Positions 4,236-64,000 of a stretch of 64,000 bases of DNA are shown here, piece after piece. Made by a program: the position numbers and the translations under genes. The first letter of the stretch is position 1. The number at the start of each line of letters is the position of its first letter. This DNA is from Candidatus Rokuibacteriota bacterium (GTDB taxonomy: Bacteria > Methylomirabilota > Methylomirabilia > Rokubacteriales > CSP1-6). The stretch lies in assembly GCA_003221515.1 (NCBI GenBank), contig QHSI01000106.1, positions 62,001 to 126,000 on the forward strand. The letters are read 5' to 3'. Below the pieces are notes generated by a model. It was given only the letters and a program-made list of their open reading frames with translations. It searched no databases and had not been told where the DNA came from.

Positions 4236-5540
4236 TTAGGGACGGGCTGGCGCCGGGCTGGAGGCCAGCAGCTCCTGGAGGAGGCGCTGGGCGTCGTCGT
4301 GAGGTGTTGCTTTCAGGAGGCTGATGGCCCGTGCGGTGTCTTGCGGCACCCCGAGGCCGCCCGCGTAGAAGCGCGCGAGGCTGATCCGGGGACGCACCTG
4401 GCCCTCGGCGGCGGCGCTCTGAAAATACGCGAGGACCTTTGGGTCGTGCGCCGGTAGCTGTCCTCGGACGCCATGGTAGTAGATGGTCTCGAGTAGGCCC
4501 TGAGCCGGCTCGCTGAGCAGGCTGGCCTCCCGGATCAGCATCCTCACTGCCTCACGCCCTCGTCCCTGGCGCAGGAGCGCCGCGCCGACCGTGTCATCGT
4601 CTCCGTCACGAGCGAGCTCCGGAAACCCGGCCCACAGTGTTGCCCGATGCTCCTGAAAGGCCTGAAGGGCAGCCTGGCGCTCTGCCGGTGGTCGCCGATT
4701 CCAGCCGAGCGCAATCCGCCGAAGCTGCAGGAGCTCGCCGGACGCCGCCGTCGATCCCTGATCGACGGCGCGCGACCACCATGCGATCGCGAGCGGTAGG
4801 CTGCGCTCGACCCCAAAGCCCTTGGCGTACGCCGTCCCCGCGAAATACTGGGCGTGCGGATGACCGGCTTCCGCCGCGGCGAGGAATTCCTTCGTCGCCC
4901 CGGCATCGCCTTGCGCGAGCTTCAGAACGACGGCCAGGCTGTAACGTGCATCGGGGAACTCGGGTCTGAGGACCAGGACTCGTCGGTACGTCTCGATCGC
5001 TCCGTTGAGGTCACCGAGGGCGTATTGCACGAAGCCTAGGCTGTAGAGCACTCCGACCAACCCCGGGTCTCGGCGGACGACATCCTCCAGCTCTGCGCGC
5101 GCGGCGGCCCAATCTTGCTTGGCCATGAGCGCTGTGCCCAGCAAGTGTCTGGTCGCGACGCGGTCGGGTCGCTGCTGCAGAACCGCCCGAAACTCTTCGA
5201 CCGCGCCATCGACGTCGCCCATGCCGTAGAGCGCTTGTCCGAGGCGCTCCCGGGCTTCGATCATTTCGGGTTGGAGGCGAAGTGCCTCGCGCAGGAATAT
5301 CGTGGCGGCCGCCATGTCGCCCCGGAGGATCGCCGTCCAGCCGAGCCCGAGCTGAGCTCGTGCCTGGGCTTCACGCGGGTCGGCCGACTCGGGGGCTGGC
5401 GCTGCGTCAGTCTGAGCTGTGCCGGGGCCTGCGCCGACTGTGCTCGCCGGAGCGGGGGCCGATGACGTCGCGCAGCCGGCCGCGACCAGGGCGAGCAGGA
5501 AGGAAGGAACGAGCACGCTTCTCAGGCCGGGCCTCCTCAC
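4236..5540 (-). CDS. TPR/Sel1-repeat lipoprotein
   Basis: This 434-residue protein has a lipoprotein signal ('LLALVAAGC', Cys at about 23) and an Ala/Pro-rich linker. TPR repeats (about 65-215, e.g. 'EARERLGQALYGMGDVDGAV') follow, and then Sel1-like repeats ('YFAGTAYAKGFGVERSLPLA' and 'SLARFYAGGLGVPQDTARA'). Such proteins are scaffolds on the membrane, often for secretion, envelope or signalling complexes. It is directly upstream of the CHASE2/sigma-54 regulator and may be its sensing partner; that is inference. No catalytic motif is visible. Confidence 0.85.
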   Translation of the reverse strand: MRRPGLRSVLVPSFLLALVAAGCATSSAPAPASTVGAGPGTAQTDAAPAPESADPREAQARAQLGLGWTAILRGDMAAATIFLREALRLQPEMIEARERLGQALYGMGDVDGAVEEFRAVLQQRPDRVATRHLLGTALMAKQDWAAARAELEDVVRRDPGLVGVLYSLGFVQYALGDLNGAIETYRRVLVLRPEFPDARYSLAVVLKLAQGDAGATKEFLAAAEAGHPHAQYFAGTAYAKGFGVERSLPLAIAWWSRAVDQGSTAASGELLQLRRIALGWNRRPPAERQAALQAFQEHRATLWAGFPELARDGDDDTVGAALLRQGRGREAVRMLIREASLLSEPAQGLLETIYYHGVRGQLPAHDPKVLAYFQSAAAEGQVRPRISLARFYAGGLGVPQDTARAISLLKATPHDDAQRLLQELLASSPAPARP

Positions 5541-59682: not shown

Positions 59683-61269
59683 CTACGCTGGCGAGCTACG
59701 GAAGACGATCTCGCCGCCGACGAGCGTCAAGACGGGTGTGATGTACGGGATGCGGGCTTCTGGGCAGGTGAACACGTCATCGGAAATCGCGACGAGGTCG
59801 GCGAGCTTGCCGATGGCGAGGGAGCCGAGATCGTGCTCCTGGCGTGAGGCGTAGGCGTTCCAGGTCGTGAACGAGCGTACGGCCTCGGCACGCGTCATCC
59901 GCTGCTCGGGTTGCCACTCGCGATGCTCGCCGCTCAGCGGTCGCCGGGCGACCGCGGCGTAGATGCCGTGGAACGGGCTCGGGCTCTCGACGGGAAAGTC
60001 GGAGCCACCGGCGATGACGACCCCCGTGTCCAGCAGTGAGCGCCACGCGTAGGCGCCGCGGAGCCGGTCCGGACCCAGGCGCTCGGCGGCCCATTCCATG
60101 TCGGAGGTGCAGTGGGTCGCCTGCATGCTCGGCAGGGCGCCGAGCTGCCGGAAGCGCGGGATATCGCGCTCGGTCAGGATCTGCGCATGCTCGACGCGAA
60201 AGCGATGGTCGCGTCGGGGCGCGCGGGCCAGCGTCTGCTCGAGCGCGTCGAGCGTGAGCGTGTTCGCGCGGTCGCCGATGGCGTGGACGCAGATTTGGAA
60301 TCCGCGTTCTGCGCCCTCGAGGGTGAGCCGCGCGATCTCCTCGGGTGGGATCAGGACGAGCCCGGTGTTGCCGGGATCGTCGCAGTAGGGCTCGTGCAGC
60401 GCGGCGCCGCGCGAGCCGAGCGCGCCGTCGATCATCAGCTTGAGCGCGCCGATCACCACGCGGCCGTCGCCGAGCGTCTCGGGGCCCCGCTCGCGGTAGT
60501 GCGCCCAGGTCGACGCCGAGCGCGCGGCCACCGCGGCGTAGTTCCGGAACGGGAACTGGCCGCGCTCGACGAGCCGGCGATACGCAGTGAGCGCGTAGAG
60601 CTCGGCGCCCATCTCATGGATGCCCGTGAGCCCCGCGGCAAGGCACTCGGCGATCGCCTCTCGCACGGCCTGATCGAAGCGCTCGTCTGAAGGCCGGGGC
60701 TCGGCGCGCTGGAGCAGGTGCTGGGCCGTGTCGATCAGCACGCCCGTCGGCTCGCCCCGCGCGTCCTTCATGATCAGCCCACCGCTCGGATCCTTGGTCG
60801 CAGCGTCGATGCCAACGGCGGCGAGCGCGGCCGAGTTCGCCCACGTCGCGTGGCCGTCGATGCGGTTGAGCGACACGGGATGGTGGGGCGCGGCACGATC
60901 GAGCGAGGCCTTCGTGGGCCATTCGCGTCCGGGCCATCGGTTGTGGTCCCAGCCGCGCCCGCCCACCCACTCGCCGCGCGGCAGGGTGGCCGCTCGCGCT
61001 GCGACACGCTCGGCGACCTCGGTCTCCGAGCCGGCGCCGCCTGCGTCGAGGCTGAGCCGCGCGCGGGCCAGGTGCATCAGGTGACCGTGGGCGTCGACGA
61101 GCCCGGGGACCACCGCGCGCCCGCCGAGGTCGATGGTTTCTTCCGCGTCGGACACGTTCGCGTCGGCGCGGCGCCCGGCGAAGACCACGCGCCCGTCACG
61201 GATGACCAGCGTGTCGACGACCGCGTCCGACGCATCCAGCGTGTAGATGCGGCCGTTGGTCAGCAGCAC
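59683..61269 (-). CDS. YtcJ-like amidohydrolase
   Basis: The best start is GTG 61269 ('LLTNGRIYTLDASDAVVDTL'), giving 528 residues. Metal site motifs are 'VPGLVDAHGHLMHLARARLS', 'ICVHAIGDRANTLTLDALE', 'HRFRVEHAQIL' and 'GSDFPVESPSPFHGIYAAV'. Members deacylate N-acyl or formamide compounds. The frame is open upstream into TrpEG only because TrpG is damaged; the original TrpG stop (61272-61274) lies two bases before this start. Confidence 0.88.
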   Translation of the reverse strand: MLLTNGRIYTLDASDAVVDTLVIRDGRVVFAGRRADANVSDAEETIDLGGRAVVPGLVDAHGHLMHLARARLSLDAGGAGSETEVAERVAARAATLPRGEWVGGRGWDHNRWPGREWPTKASLDRAAPHHPVSLNRIDGHATWANSAALAAVGIDAATKDPSGGLIMKDARGEPTGVLIDTAQHLLQRAEPRPSDERFDQAVREAIAECLAAGLTGIHEMGAELYALTAYRRLVERGQFPFRNYAAVAARSASTWAHYRERGPETLGDGRVVIGALKLMIDGALGSRGAALHEPYCDDPGNTGLVLIPPEEIARLTLEGAERGFQICVHAIGDRANTLTLDALEQTLARAPRRDHRFRVEHAQILTERDIPRFRQLGALPSMQATHCTSDMEWAAERLGPDRLRGAYAWRSLLDTGVVIAGGSDFPVESPSPFHGIYAAVARRPLSGEHREWQPEQRMTRAEAVRSFTTWNAYASRQEHDLGSLAIGKLADLVAISDDVFTCPEARIPYITPVLTLVGGEIVFRSSPA

Positions 61270-61271
61270 GC

Positions 61272-63279
61272 TCAGCCCGCGGCGCGACAGCTCGCCACGA
61301 CGTTGCGGATCAGGCGCAGCCCGACCTCGTCGCCGAAGCTCAGGGCCGGCCGTGAACTCCTTCGGCAACCCCTCGAAGATCTTGCCGCCGATCACCTGGA
61401 TGCGCGACGCCTTGCCGTGCATCGGGTAGTCGAGCACGCCCAGCTCGCCGCCGAAGTGCTCGACGATGCCCTGCAGGCCGAGACACACGCCGAATACGGG
61501 CAGGCGCCGCCCGATCGCGGCGGCCAGCGTGCCGGCGACGTCGAAGTCGCTCGGCCGCCCGGGGCCGGGGGACAGCACGACCAGCTCAGGGCGCAGATCG
61601 TCGAGTGCCGCGTGAGGAAAGCCCGCGCGCAGGGTGACGACGTCGGCGCCGGTCTGGCGGAAGTAGTTCGCCAGCGTGTGAACGAACGAATCTTGATGGT
61701 CGACCAGCAAGACCCGCATGCCCTCGCCCAGGCGCTCGGCGTCCGCGCGCGCGGCGCGCGGCACACCGCGCGGCCGCCGGATGGCGTCCAGGAACGCCGC
61801 CGCCTTCAAGTGCGTCTCGCGCTCCTCCCCGTCGGGATCCGAGTCGTAGAGCAGGGTGGCGCCGGCACGGATCTCGGCGATGCCGTCCTTGACGCGCACG
61901 GTGCGGAGCGTGAGGCCGGTGTTCATGTTGCCGTCGAAGCCCAGCAGGCCGACCGCGCCCCCGTACCAGGCGCGCGGCGAGCGCTCGTGGTCCTCGATGA
62001 ACTGCATCGCCCACGTCTTGGGCGCGCCGGTGACGGTGACCGCCCACGCGTGGGCCAGAAAGGCGTCGAGCGCGTCGAAGCCCTCACGCAGCCGGCCCTC
62101 GACGTGGTCGACGGTGTGGATGAGCCGCGAGTACATCTCGATCTGGCGCCGCCCGATCACGCGCACGCTGCCCGGCCGGCAGATGCGCGACTTGTCGTTG
62201 CGGTCGACGTCGGTGCACATCGTCAGCTCCGACTCGTCCTTCTCGGAGTTGAGCAGCCGCTGGATCTGCGCGGCGTCGCCCAGCGGATCGTCGCCCCGCG
62301 CGATCGTCCCCGAGATCGGGCACGTCTCCACACGATCGCCGTCGACCCGCACGTACATCTCGGGCGAGGCGCCGACCAGATACTCGCCGGCGCCCAGGTT
62401 GAAGAGGAACCCGTACGGCGCGGGGTTGCGCTCTCGAAGCCGGCGAAACAGCTCGGACGGCGGGATCGCGCACTGCTCGAAGAACGTTTGCCCGGGGACC
62501 ACCTCGAACAGGTCCCCGCAGCGAAACGCCTCGCGCGCGCGCTTGACGCCGGCGGCGTATTCGCCCGGCGCGTGATCGCCGGCGCGCGGCGCCGTCGATG
62601 CGCCCGCGTAGCCGCTGACGCTGCCGTCGCGCGGCCGCCCCACCGTCGAAACACCAGCGTGCTCGAAGTCGTAGCGCCGGCGCTCGGCCCGCTCGCGCCG
62701 GTGGTCGACGATCACGAGCTCGTCGGGCAGGTAGAGCACGAGATCGCGCTGGTCGGCCGGCCGCGCGAGCCGGAGGCGAATCGGCTCGAACTGGAAGGCC
62801 AGGTCGTAGCCGAACGCGCCGTAGAGTCCGAGGTGCGCGTCTTCAGAGCTCGCGAAGAGATCGATCACTGCCCGAAGGATCGTGAAGACGGAGGTCTGCT
62901 TGCTCCGGTCCTCCTCGGCGAACCGCTGGGTCGGCGGCGCGATCTCGCCGGCCAGCGTGGTGTCGGTGCGCTCCGTCCACGTCACCGCGGGCAGGGCGGC
63001 CAGCGCGCCGGCGACGGCAGGCAGGAGCACGCGACCGCGGTCGTTCAGGGCCGACACGCGGACCGCCGCGCCGCGCGACGTCAGCTCGAGCGGCGGATCG
63101 ACGAACCCCATGTCCCAGCGCGTGTAGCGGCCGGGGTACTCGTAGCTCGAGGCCAGCAACACGCCTCGATGCGCATCGAGCCCGTCGATGACGGGCTCGA
63201 TGGCCGCCTCGACCGGCAGGTCCTCGACCGTGCGGTGGACGGTGATGCCGCCGCGGGTGACGTACTGCTCGGTGCGCAT
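61272..63279 (-). CDS. trpEG: Fused anthranilate synthase TrpE-TrpG with deleted, frameshifted TrpG end
   Basis: The TrpE part (residues about 1-510) is complete ('DLFEVVPGQTFFEQCAIPPS', 'TCPISGTIARGDDPLGD', 'DRNDKSRICRPGSVRV'). The TrpG part starts 'MRVLLVDHQDSFVHTLANYF' and keeps its Cys ('VFGVCLGLQGIVEHFGGELG'). After 'GLPKEFTAG' near 61345 about 49 residues are missing, including the HPE motif with the catalytic His and Glu. The true C-terminus ('GDEVGLRLIRNVVASCRAAG', stop 61272) survives in another frame. Glutamine use should be lost; ammonia-dependent activity could remain. A trp attenuator precedes it. Confidence 0.88.
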
Positions 63280-63313
63280 GACTTGTGTCTTCTCCCTGGG
63301 AGCGGCGGTCCTG

Positions 63314-63353
63314 AAAAGCGAAGGACCGCGGCCTCGCTTCGAGGCGGCGGTCC
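63314..63353 (-). terminator. trp attenuator terminator
   Basis: On the minus strand GGACCGCCGCCTCG pairs with CGAGGCCGCGGTCC (13 of 14 bp) around AAG and is followed by TTCGCTTTT. It ends 35 bases before the TrpEG ATG. Its 5' arm can instead pair with the preceding hairpin. Confidence 0.75.
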
Positions 63354-63438
63354 CTGAAACGACGAAGCCGCCTCGTGCCTCGAGGCGGCTCCCTGTTCGG
63401 TGACGAACGATGCCCGGGGGCCGCCTATTGGGGCGGCC
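63340..63438 (-). promoter_or_regulatory. trp attenuator switch hairpins
   Basis: Segment 1 GGCCGCC (63432-63438) and 2 GGCGGCC (63419-63425) pair across the leader stop codon. Segments 3 and 4, AGCCGCCTCG (63381-63390) and CGAGGCGGCT (63366-63375), form a perfect 10-bp hairpin. Alternatives: 2 with 3 (AGGCGGC/GCCGCCT) and 4 with 5 (CGAGGCGGC/GCCGCCTCG at 63340-63348), the latter blocking the terminator. Confidence 0.7.
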
Positions 63439-63472
63439 ACCACCAGCGTTGAGCCGGACTCGGGCGAATCAT
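63425..63472 (-). CDS. trpL: trp leader peptide
   Basis: The ORF ATG 63472 to TAG 63425 encodes MIRPSPAQRWWWPPQ, with three consecutive Trp codons (63437-63445) just before the stop. Ribosome stalling there under tryptophan shortage would shift the downstream hairpins. There is no ribosome site; the predicted transcript start falls on the ATG, so it is probably leaderless, as trpL of Sinorhizobium meliloti is. Confidence 0.85.
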   Translation of the reverse strand: MIRPSPAQRWWWPPQ

Positions 63473-63478
63473 GGCCGC

Positions 63479-63507
63479 ATCTTGCCAGCCTTGGCCGTGC
63501 CCGTCAA
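63479..63507 (-). promoter_or_regulatory. trp promoter
   Basis: TTGACG (63502-63507) and CAAGAT (63479-63484) are separated by 17 bases on the minus strand. The predicted start, about seven bases on, coincides with the trpL ATG at 63472. Confidence 0.6.

Positions 63508-63641: not shown

Positions 63642-63658
<17 letters not shown>
63608..63658. repeat. Three 17-bp copies of the bipA gene end
   Basis: CTAGAAC-TGC-GCGAG-type units start at 63608, 63625 and 63642. The last holds the bipA stop (TAG 63642-63644). The other two are downstream copies of the final codons and stop, probably from slippage. Confidence 0.75.

Positions 63659-64000
<342 letters not shown>

Follow-up and report, generated by a model that had tools for sequence, protein, structure and literature searches.

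The window analysed here is a 64,000-nt stretch of DNA from an uncultured soil bacterium. A putative attenuator region lies on its minus strand between bipA/typA, whose C-terminal part (63642-63998) neighbours the leader region, and trpE(G), the presumed regulated gene (59683-63279, minus strand; assigned by Pfam and tblastn), which starts at 63279, downstream of the leader. Direct reading of the minus strand and comparison with other leaders identified a short leader ORF, trpL (63425-63472, minus strand), which encodes MIRPSPAQRWWWPPQ followed by a stop codon and is probably leaderless. Its ATG is at 63472, the Trp codons are at 63445-63437 and the stop codon is at 63427-63425, 145 nt before the trpE(G) start. 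A short ORF with tandem Trp codons is thus present ahead of a trp gene, and the WWW leader peptide of a trp attenuator that had been proposed from the sequence-only reading corresponds to this ORF. A tiny ORF (ATG CGG CCA TGA, 63480-63469, minus strand) overlaps the trpL start codon.

The fused trpE(G) was the sole Chorismate_bind match in the window's genome; a relative of the same genus, G007, has two Chorismate_bind genes, one stand-alone and one fused trpE(G). The TrpG part of the window's gene is damaged at 61287-61773 (minus strand, tblastn): residues 1-143 of the relatives' TrpG matched one frame and residues 191-209 matched another immediately after, with about 47 TrpG residues missing and a frameshift, and the ORF then enters an amidohydrolase. 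This damage represents either real decay or an assembly error. In the sister genome G002, the TrpG frame differs from the TrpE frame.

A putative promoter was recognised upstream of trpL (63479-63507, minus strand) from the sequence and a comparison of 22 leaders. It consists of a -35 element TTGACG (63507-63502), a 17-nt spacer and a -10 element CAAGAT (63484-63479) located 6 nt before the ATG; a generic promoter scan of the window called no promoter. This TTGACG-17-CAAGAT-6-ATG arrangement is identical in G002 and similar in most relatives. The distance from the -10 element to the start codon is 6 nt in the window and G002; of 21 scored leaders, 20 fall within 6-10 nt, the exception being G405 with 14 nt (G010 was left out of the scoring since too little upstream sequence was available). 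The spacing suggests that the leader mRNA is probably leaderless, in agreement with the earlier proposal. In Sinorhizobium meliloti, rnTrpL is reported to start at the trpL ATG (PMC7298713), and RcsR1 and rnTrpL are described as sharing their start position (PMC7143759); the -10/ATG arrangement of the window's family would fit such a start.

Six pairing segments were located in and behind trpL, all on the minus strand. Segment 1 (GGCCGCC, 63432-63438) overlaps the last Trp codon, and segment 2 (AGGCGGCCCCC, 63416-63426) can pair with 1 or 3. Segment 3 (GGGAGCCGCCUCG, 63381-63393) has 2 or 4 as its partner, and segment 4 (CGAGGCGGCUUC, 63364-63375) has 3 or 5; hairpin 3:4, the candidate terminator 1, has the tail UUCGUCGUUUCA from 63366. 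Segment 5 (GGGACCGCCGCCUCG, 63340-63354) can pair with 4 or 6, and hairpin 5:6, the candidate terminator 2, is completed by segment 6 (CGAGGCCGCGGUCC, 63323-63336) with a U-rich tail directly behind it. The hairpins 1:2, 3:4 and 5:6 read on the minus strand are those that had been described before. The exact pairings 2:3 (7 bp) and 4:5 (9 bp) were also reproduced, and 2:3 proved better than claimed, reaching 10 bp (seven plus three) when one bulged A was allowed. Since 2:3 and 3:4, as well as 4:5 and 5:6, are mutually exclusive, 1:2, 3:4 and 5:6 alternate with 2:3 and 4:5 in the manner of a his-type six-segment relay. Segments 3 and 5 resemble each other, each containing GCCGCCUCG and each being preceded by CAGGGA.

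The 196-nt leader folded at -100.7 compared with -80.2 ± 4.5 for 200 dinucleotide shuffles (z -4.54), and none of the 200 shuffles was as stable. Together with the recurrence in relatives described below, this result demonstrates that the arrangement of the leader is not due to chance. The energies of the isolated helices were -14.7 (1:2), -21.7 (2:3), -23.0 (3:4), -21.9 (4:5), -24.7 (5:6) and -12.8 kcal/mol (6:7, see below), and are balanced, as a switch requires. In the whole leader, 1:2, 3:4 and 5:6 formed (-91.2 at nt 160). When segment 1 was masked, 2:3 was the MFE fold as segment 3 emerged (-22.2), 3:4 was better by 2.6 kcal/mol as segment 4 emerged, the combination of 2:3 and 4:5 trailed the best fold by 2.1 kcal/mol as segment 5 emerged (-44.6 versus -46.7), and 5:6 was better by 7.5 kcal/mol as segment 6 emerged. 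The computed direct barrier was 3.9 kcal/mol for the replacement of 2:3 by 3:4 (the method gives 5.8 for E. coli trp) and 13.4 kcal/mol for the replacement of 4:5 by 5:6; these folding and barrier values are crude, being computed without ribosome or polymerase. Because the terminated fold of the full-length window leader was still lower with segment 1 masked (-77.7 versus -66.6), a relay in the window would have to be kinetic. In some relatives it would also be thermodynamic; 2:3 and 4:5 stayed the best folds of the tested stretches in the Binatia leader G101.

TrpE(G) was detected in 10 of the 99 genomes of the window's lineage. All six segments are kept in the sister genome G002, whose TrpE is 92% identical. 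Six further Rokubacteria (G010, G015, G007, G009, G004 and G008) have a WWW leader and the 3:4 hairpin without 5:6; G048, which belongs to the same family as the window's genome, has the hairpin and no recognised WWW leader, and G001 was reached via a C-terminal TrpE fragment that does not extend to the leader. Within the class holding Candidatus Binatia, TrpE was found in 15 of 148 genomes (E ≤ 1e-200), 14 of which have a six-segment leader (in G099, 5:6 is shortened); the remaining genome, G106, lacks a WWW leader. Four of the 29 genomes in the class of G100 have TrpE: six segments are present in G554, G100 itself keeps 3:4 and segment 5 but lacks a clean 5:6 with a U tail, and the leaders of G539 and G540 are not of the six-segment type. 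The six-segment layout is shared by distantly related bacteria, and the idea that 5:6 is an insertion private to the window was rejected since 5:6 recurs in relatives.

A covariance model of 3:4 plus 5:6 was built from the aligned leaders and run on three genome sets. Matches of at least 46 bits were obtained in 15 of 148 genomes of the Binatia class (next best, 34.7), and strong matches were obtained in 2 of 95 genomes of the window's class (next best, 31.2) and 2 of 400 genomes of the phylum of G554 (next best, 38.2); all strong matches except two had served to build the model. In both held-out matches, G407 (67.1 bits) and G574 (55.0 bits), the hairpins follow a WWW leader directly and stand directly upstream of trpE, and 2:3, 4:5 and 5:6 are kept, with a weak 4:5 in G574 (p 0.13). 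Two tandem hairpins in L044 (Pseudochrobactrum, 5157-5229), ca. 2 kb downstream of the trpE start, matched the model at 44.3 bits. A tree of 40 TrpE rows placed the window and G002 outside a five-row Rokubacteria clade (100/98); they grouped instead with the rows of Binatia, G554, G009 and Sorangium in a larger clade of weak support (93/88). It is likely, not proven, that trpE(G) and its leader were transferred horizontally.

Conservation was evaluated in an alignment of 17 six-segment leaders chosen by eye (2 Rokubacteria-like, 14 from the Binatia class and 1 from a third lineage). The terminated state (1:2, 3:4 and 5:6) had standard pairs in 94.6% of cells, and this proportion dropped to 33-65% for slid versions of the structure. 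Double changes were seen in 24 cells as compared to 9.7 in shuffles, and none of the 500 shuffles reached 24; the number of further pair types in this alignment was not raised relative to shuffles. Hairpin 5:6 covaries: five of its 13 pairs carry double changes, some of which are common to eight related sequences. The alternative pairings were formed in 90.3% (2:3) and 92.4% (4:5) of cells. No covariation measure of 2:3 or 4:5 in the 17 leaders exceeded shuffles, and their changes were nearly all of the G-U type; little variation is expected in segments 3 to 5 since each takes part in two helices. Hence, the case for 2:3 and 4:5 comes from conservation and position, not from double compensation. 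The alternating pairings first noticed in the window alone are thus kept among its relatives; their absence there, which would have spoken against the sequence-only reading, was not observed.

The choice of partner by segment 4 was analysed with 3:4 fixed. The best target of segment 4 was segment 5 in all 17 leaders, at a nearly constant distance (nominal p 0.004-0.12, median 0.008). A first scan serves as an outgroup control only, since its automatic terminator finder often took 5:6 for 3:4 in six-segment leaders and took upstream sequence in a few other leaders (e.g. G009); in this control, the leaders of other bacteria, mostly alphaproteobacteria, scattered around z 0. Among the Rokubacteria with one terminator, p was 0.012 for G015, 0.063 for G008 and 0.11-0.71 for four others, with G048 left out.

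Many leader peptides of the family have Arg-Pro near the start (in the window within 63472-63446, minus strand). The two codons, CGUCCG, are complementary to a CGGACG that lies behind segment 2. The outer helix that they would form with the tail of segment 2 was considered as a candidate and was not retained; it occurs in several members and mostly does not exceed shuffles. The constraint on Arg-Pro in the leader perhaps concerns the RNA rather than the peptide.

The tails of the two hairpins bear on which of them terminates. Behind 3:4, 7-10 U per 12 bases are present in 14 of the 17 leaders, with 6 U in the window and G002 and 5 in G554; behind 5:6, 16 leaders have 5-7 U per 10 bases and G099 has 3. 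A terminator scan of the window found none, and the window's U-tracts are weak. U-rich tails behind both hairpins favour a reading of 3:4 as the ancestral terminator, with 5:6 as a second; 3:4 itself is probably the ordinary trp terminator. The claim of the sequence-only reading that 5:6 is the terminator would hold for a second terminator and not for the sole one, since 3:4 occupies the place where the single terminator of relatives sits. Hairpin 5:6 may plausibly have arisen when the terminator was duplicated in tandem.

It could be argued that the leader works as the E. coli his attenuator does, with 3:4 as an intermediate hairpin (a pause or spacer) and 5:6 alone terminating. The geometry equals the AB/CD/EF versus BC/DE scheme of E. 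coli his, in whose description EF is the hairpin with uridines behind it (PMC10989985), and the tail of 3:4 in the window is no better than that of 5:6. However, a U-tract behind the last hairpin only is not what the family displays: the tails of 3:4 are as U-rich or richer, and in most relatives the richer U-tract is behind 3:4. In G411, G409 and G414 the poorer tail is that of 5:6, and in the six Rokubacteria relatives that have 3:4 as their only such hairpin, 3:4 must be the terminator. We therefore regard this explanation as unlikely.

Based on these results, the leader is probably a ribosome-mediated trp attenuator in which two tandem intrinsic terminators are tied by an RNA relay, and its operation may be described as follows. 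When tryptophan is sufficient, the ribosome would complete trpL and cover segment 2, or 1:2 would form. With segment 2 unavailable, 3:4 (terminator 1) would form and the polymerase would stop, and polymerases that passed terminator 1 would run into 5:6 (terminator 2). Under tryptophan shortage, the ribosome would stall on the UGG codons and mask segment 1; free segment 2 would then capture 3, disarming terminator 1. Since the freed segment 4 would capture 5, terminator 2 would also be disarmed by the same stall, and trpE(G) would be transcribed. Pairing 4:5 would make two terminators usable, as without it the second terminator would stop transcription at any tryptophan level.

This last point also bears on a simpler explanation, in which a four-segment trp attenuator (1:2 and 3:4 versus 2:3) is followed by an extra hairpin that has no relay function and serves RNA stabilisation or is a leftover of duplication, 4:5 being a by-product of the resemblance of 5 to 3. 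Segments 3 and 5 do share GCCGCCUCG, so that a duplication would yield the 4:5 complementarity free, and 4:5 covariation does not exceed shuffles. On the other hand, segment 4 prefers 5 in all 17 leaders, 5:6 is both kept and covarying, and a downstream terminator without 4:5 would be expected to block expression always; we thus consider the simpler explanation improbable. That the leader is non-functional or decaying is very improbable, since, despite the damaged TrpG domain and the weak U-tracts of the window, the sister G002 (92% TrpE identity) retains six segments and the window's genome has no Chorismate_bind match other than trpE(G).

Downstream of the two candidate terminators, the near-copy of segment 5 that had been noted before the ribosome site was found again as GGACCGCCGC (63311-63302). 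It is part of segment 7 (63298-63311, minus strand), which can pair with 6 and contains CUCC (63302-63299), complementary to GGAG (63295-63292) of the trpE Shine-Dalgarno (SD) sequence. The tandem-terminator relay might thus continue, with the freed segment 6 taking 7, whose CUCC would otherwise sequester the SD sequence; we hold this extension to be doubtful. If true, a single stall would act on both terminators and on translation initiation through one chain (1:2, 3:4, 5:6 and 7:SD versus 2:3, 4:5, 6:7 and free SD). The 6:7 geometry recurs in relatives with p 0.013-0.49 against shuffles; as a conserved helix, 6:7 was left as weak, with pairs in 53.8% of cells in the alignment. The mean z of SD complementarity was -0.82 in 28 sequences of this clade, -1.07 in 25 other leaders, mostly alphaproteobacterial, and +0.05 in 33 other trpE upstream regions (L036 among them has a WWW leader), in a test that underrates the window since the loop of its 4-bp CUCC/GGAG hairpin spans 3 nt and the arm was partly cut off. 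A sequence complementary to the SD between terminator and SD is therefore more frequent than in shuffles in attenuator leaders at large, in those of this clade as in those of alphaproteobacteria, and in Bartonella L051 nine exact pairs with the SD region are possible (ACUCCGUCC with GGACGGAGU).

A search of the literature, with most subscription journals outside its reach, found no published six-segment or tandem-terminator trp attenuator and no published trp attenuation in these lineages. The proposed attenuator would be an instance of trp attenuation, with a leader that is probably leaderless, in uncultured Rokubacteria and Binatia, and would show relays of the his type to be a more general design, with a single stalled ribosome acting on two terminators in series. 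It also suggests how relays could originate, as a duplicated terminator hairpin is by its construction able to pair with the original. The two-step relay proposed from the sequence-only reading holds in that a stall would free segment 2 and the alternating pairings are kept; it is not unprecedented, since the six-segment relay is already known in kind from E. coli his, and the system described here is probably a tandem-terminator relay rather than a his relay with a silent middle hairpin. The E. coli his attenuator is described as forming AB, CD and EF or BC and DE (PMC10989985). As here, six segments are present and a stalled ribosome blocks the last hairpin by a two-step relay (PMC10989985), whereas his has seven His codons in place of the Trp codons; the present leader lies upstream of trpE(G), its middle hairpin is a probable terminator and its translation is probably leaderless. 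The trp attenuators of Corynebacterium and Streptomyces are likewise found outside proteobacteria and have a GC-rich terminator with poly-U, but are classical attenuators as described (PMC1262725). E. coli trp shares the Trp-codon leader peptide and the antiterminator 2:3 versus terminator 3:4, but has four segments and one terminator. The trpL-trpE(G) system of S. meliloti, with rnTrpL/RcsR1 (Rfam RF02552), resembles the present one in its trpE(G) gene and tandem Trp codons, and also in a leaderless start, reported there (PMC7298713) and predicted here. Membership of the Rfam RcsR1 family was rejected (best score 20.9 bits, E 0.51, versus a gathering score of 60). The RcsR1 alignment shares the 3:4 terminator core GAGCCGCC/GGCGGCU, but the match ends at 3:4, and the model contains nothing that corresponds to 5:6.
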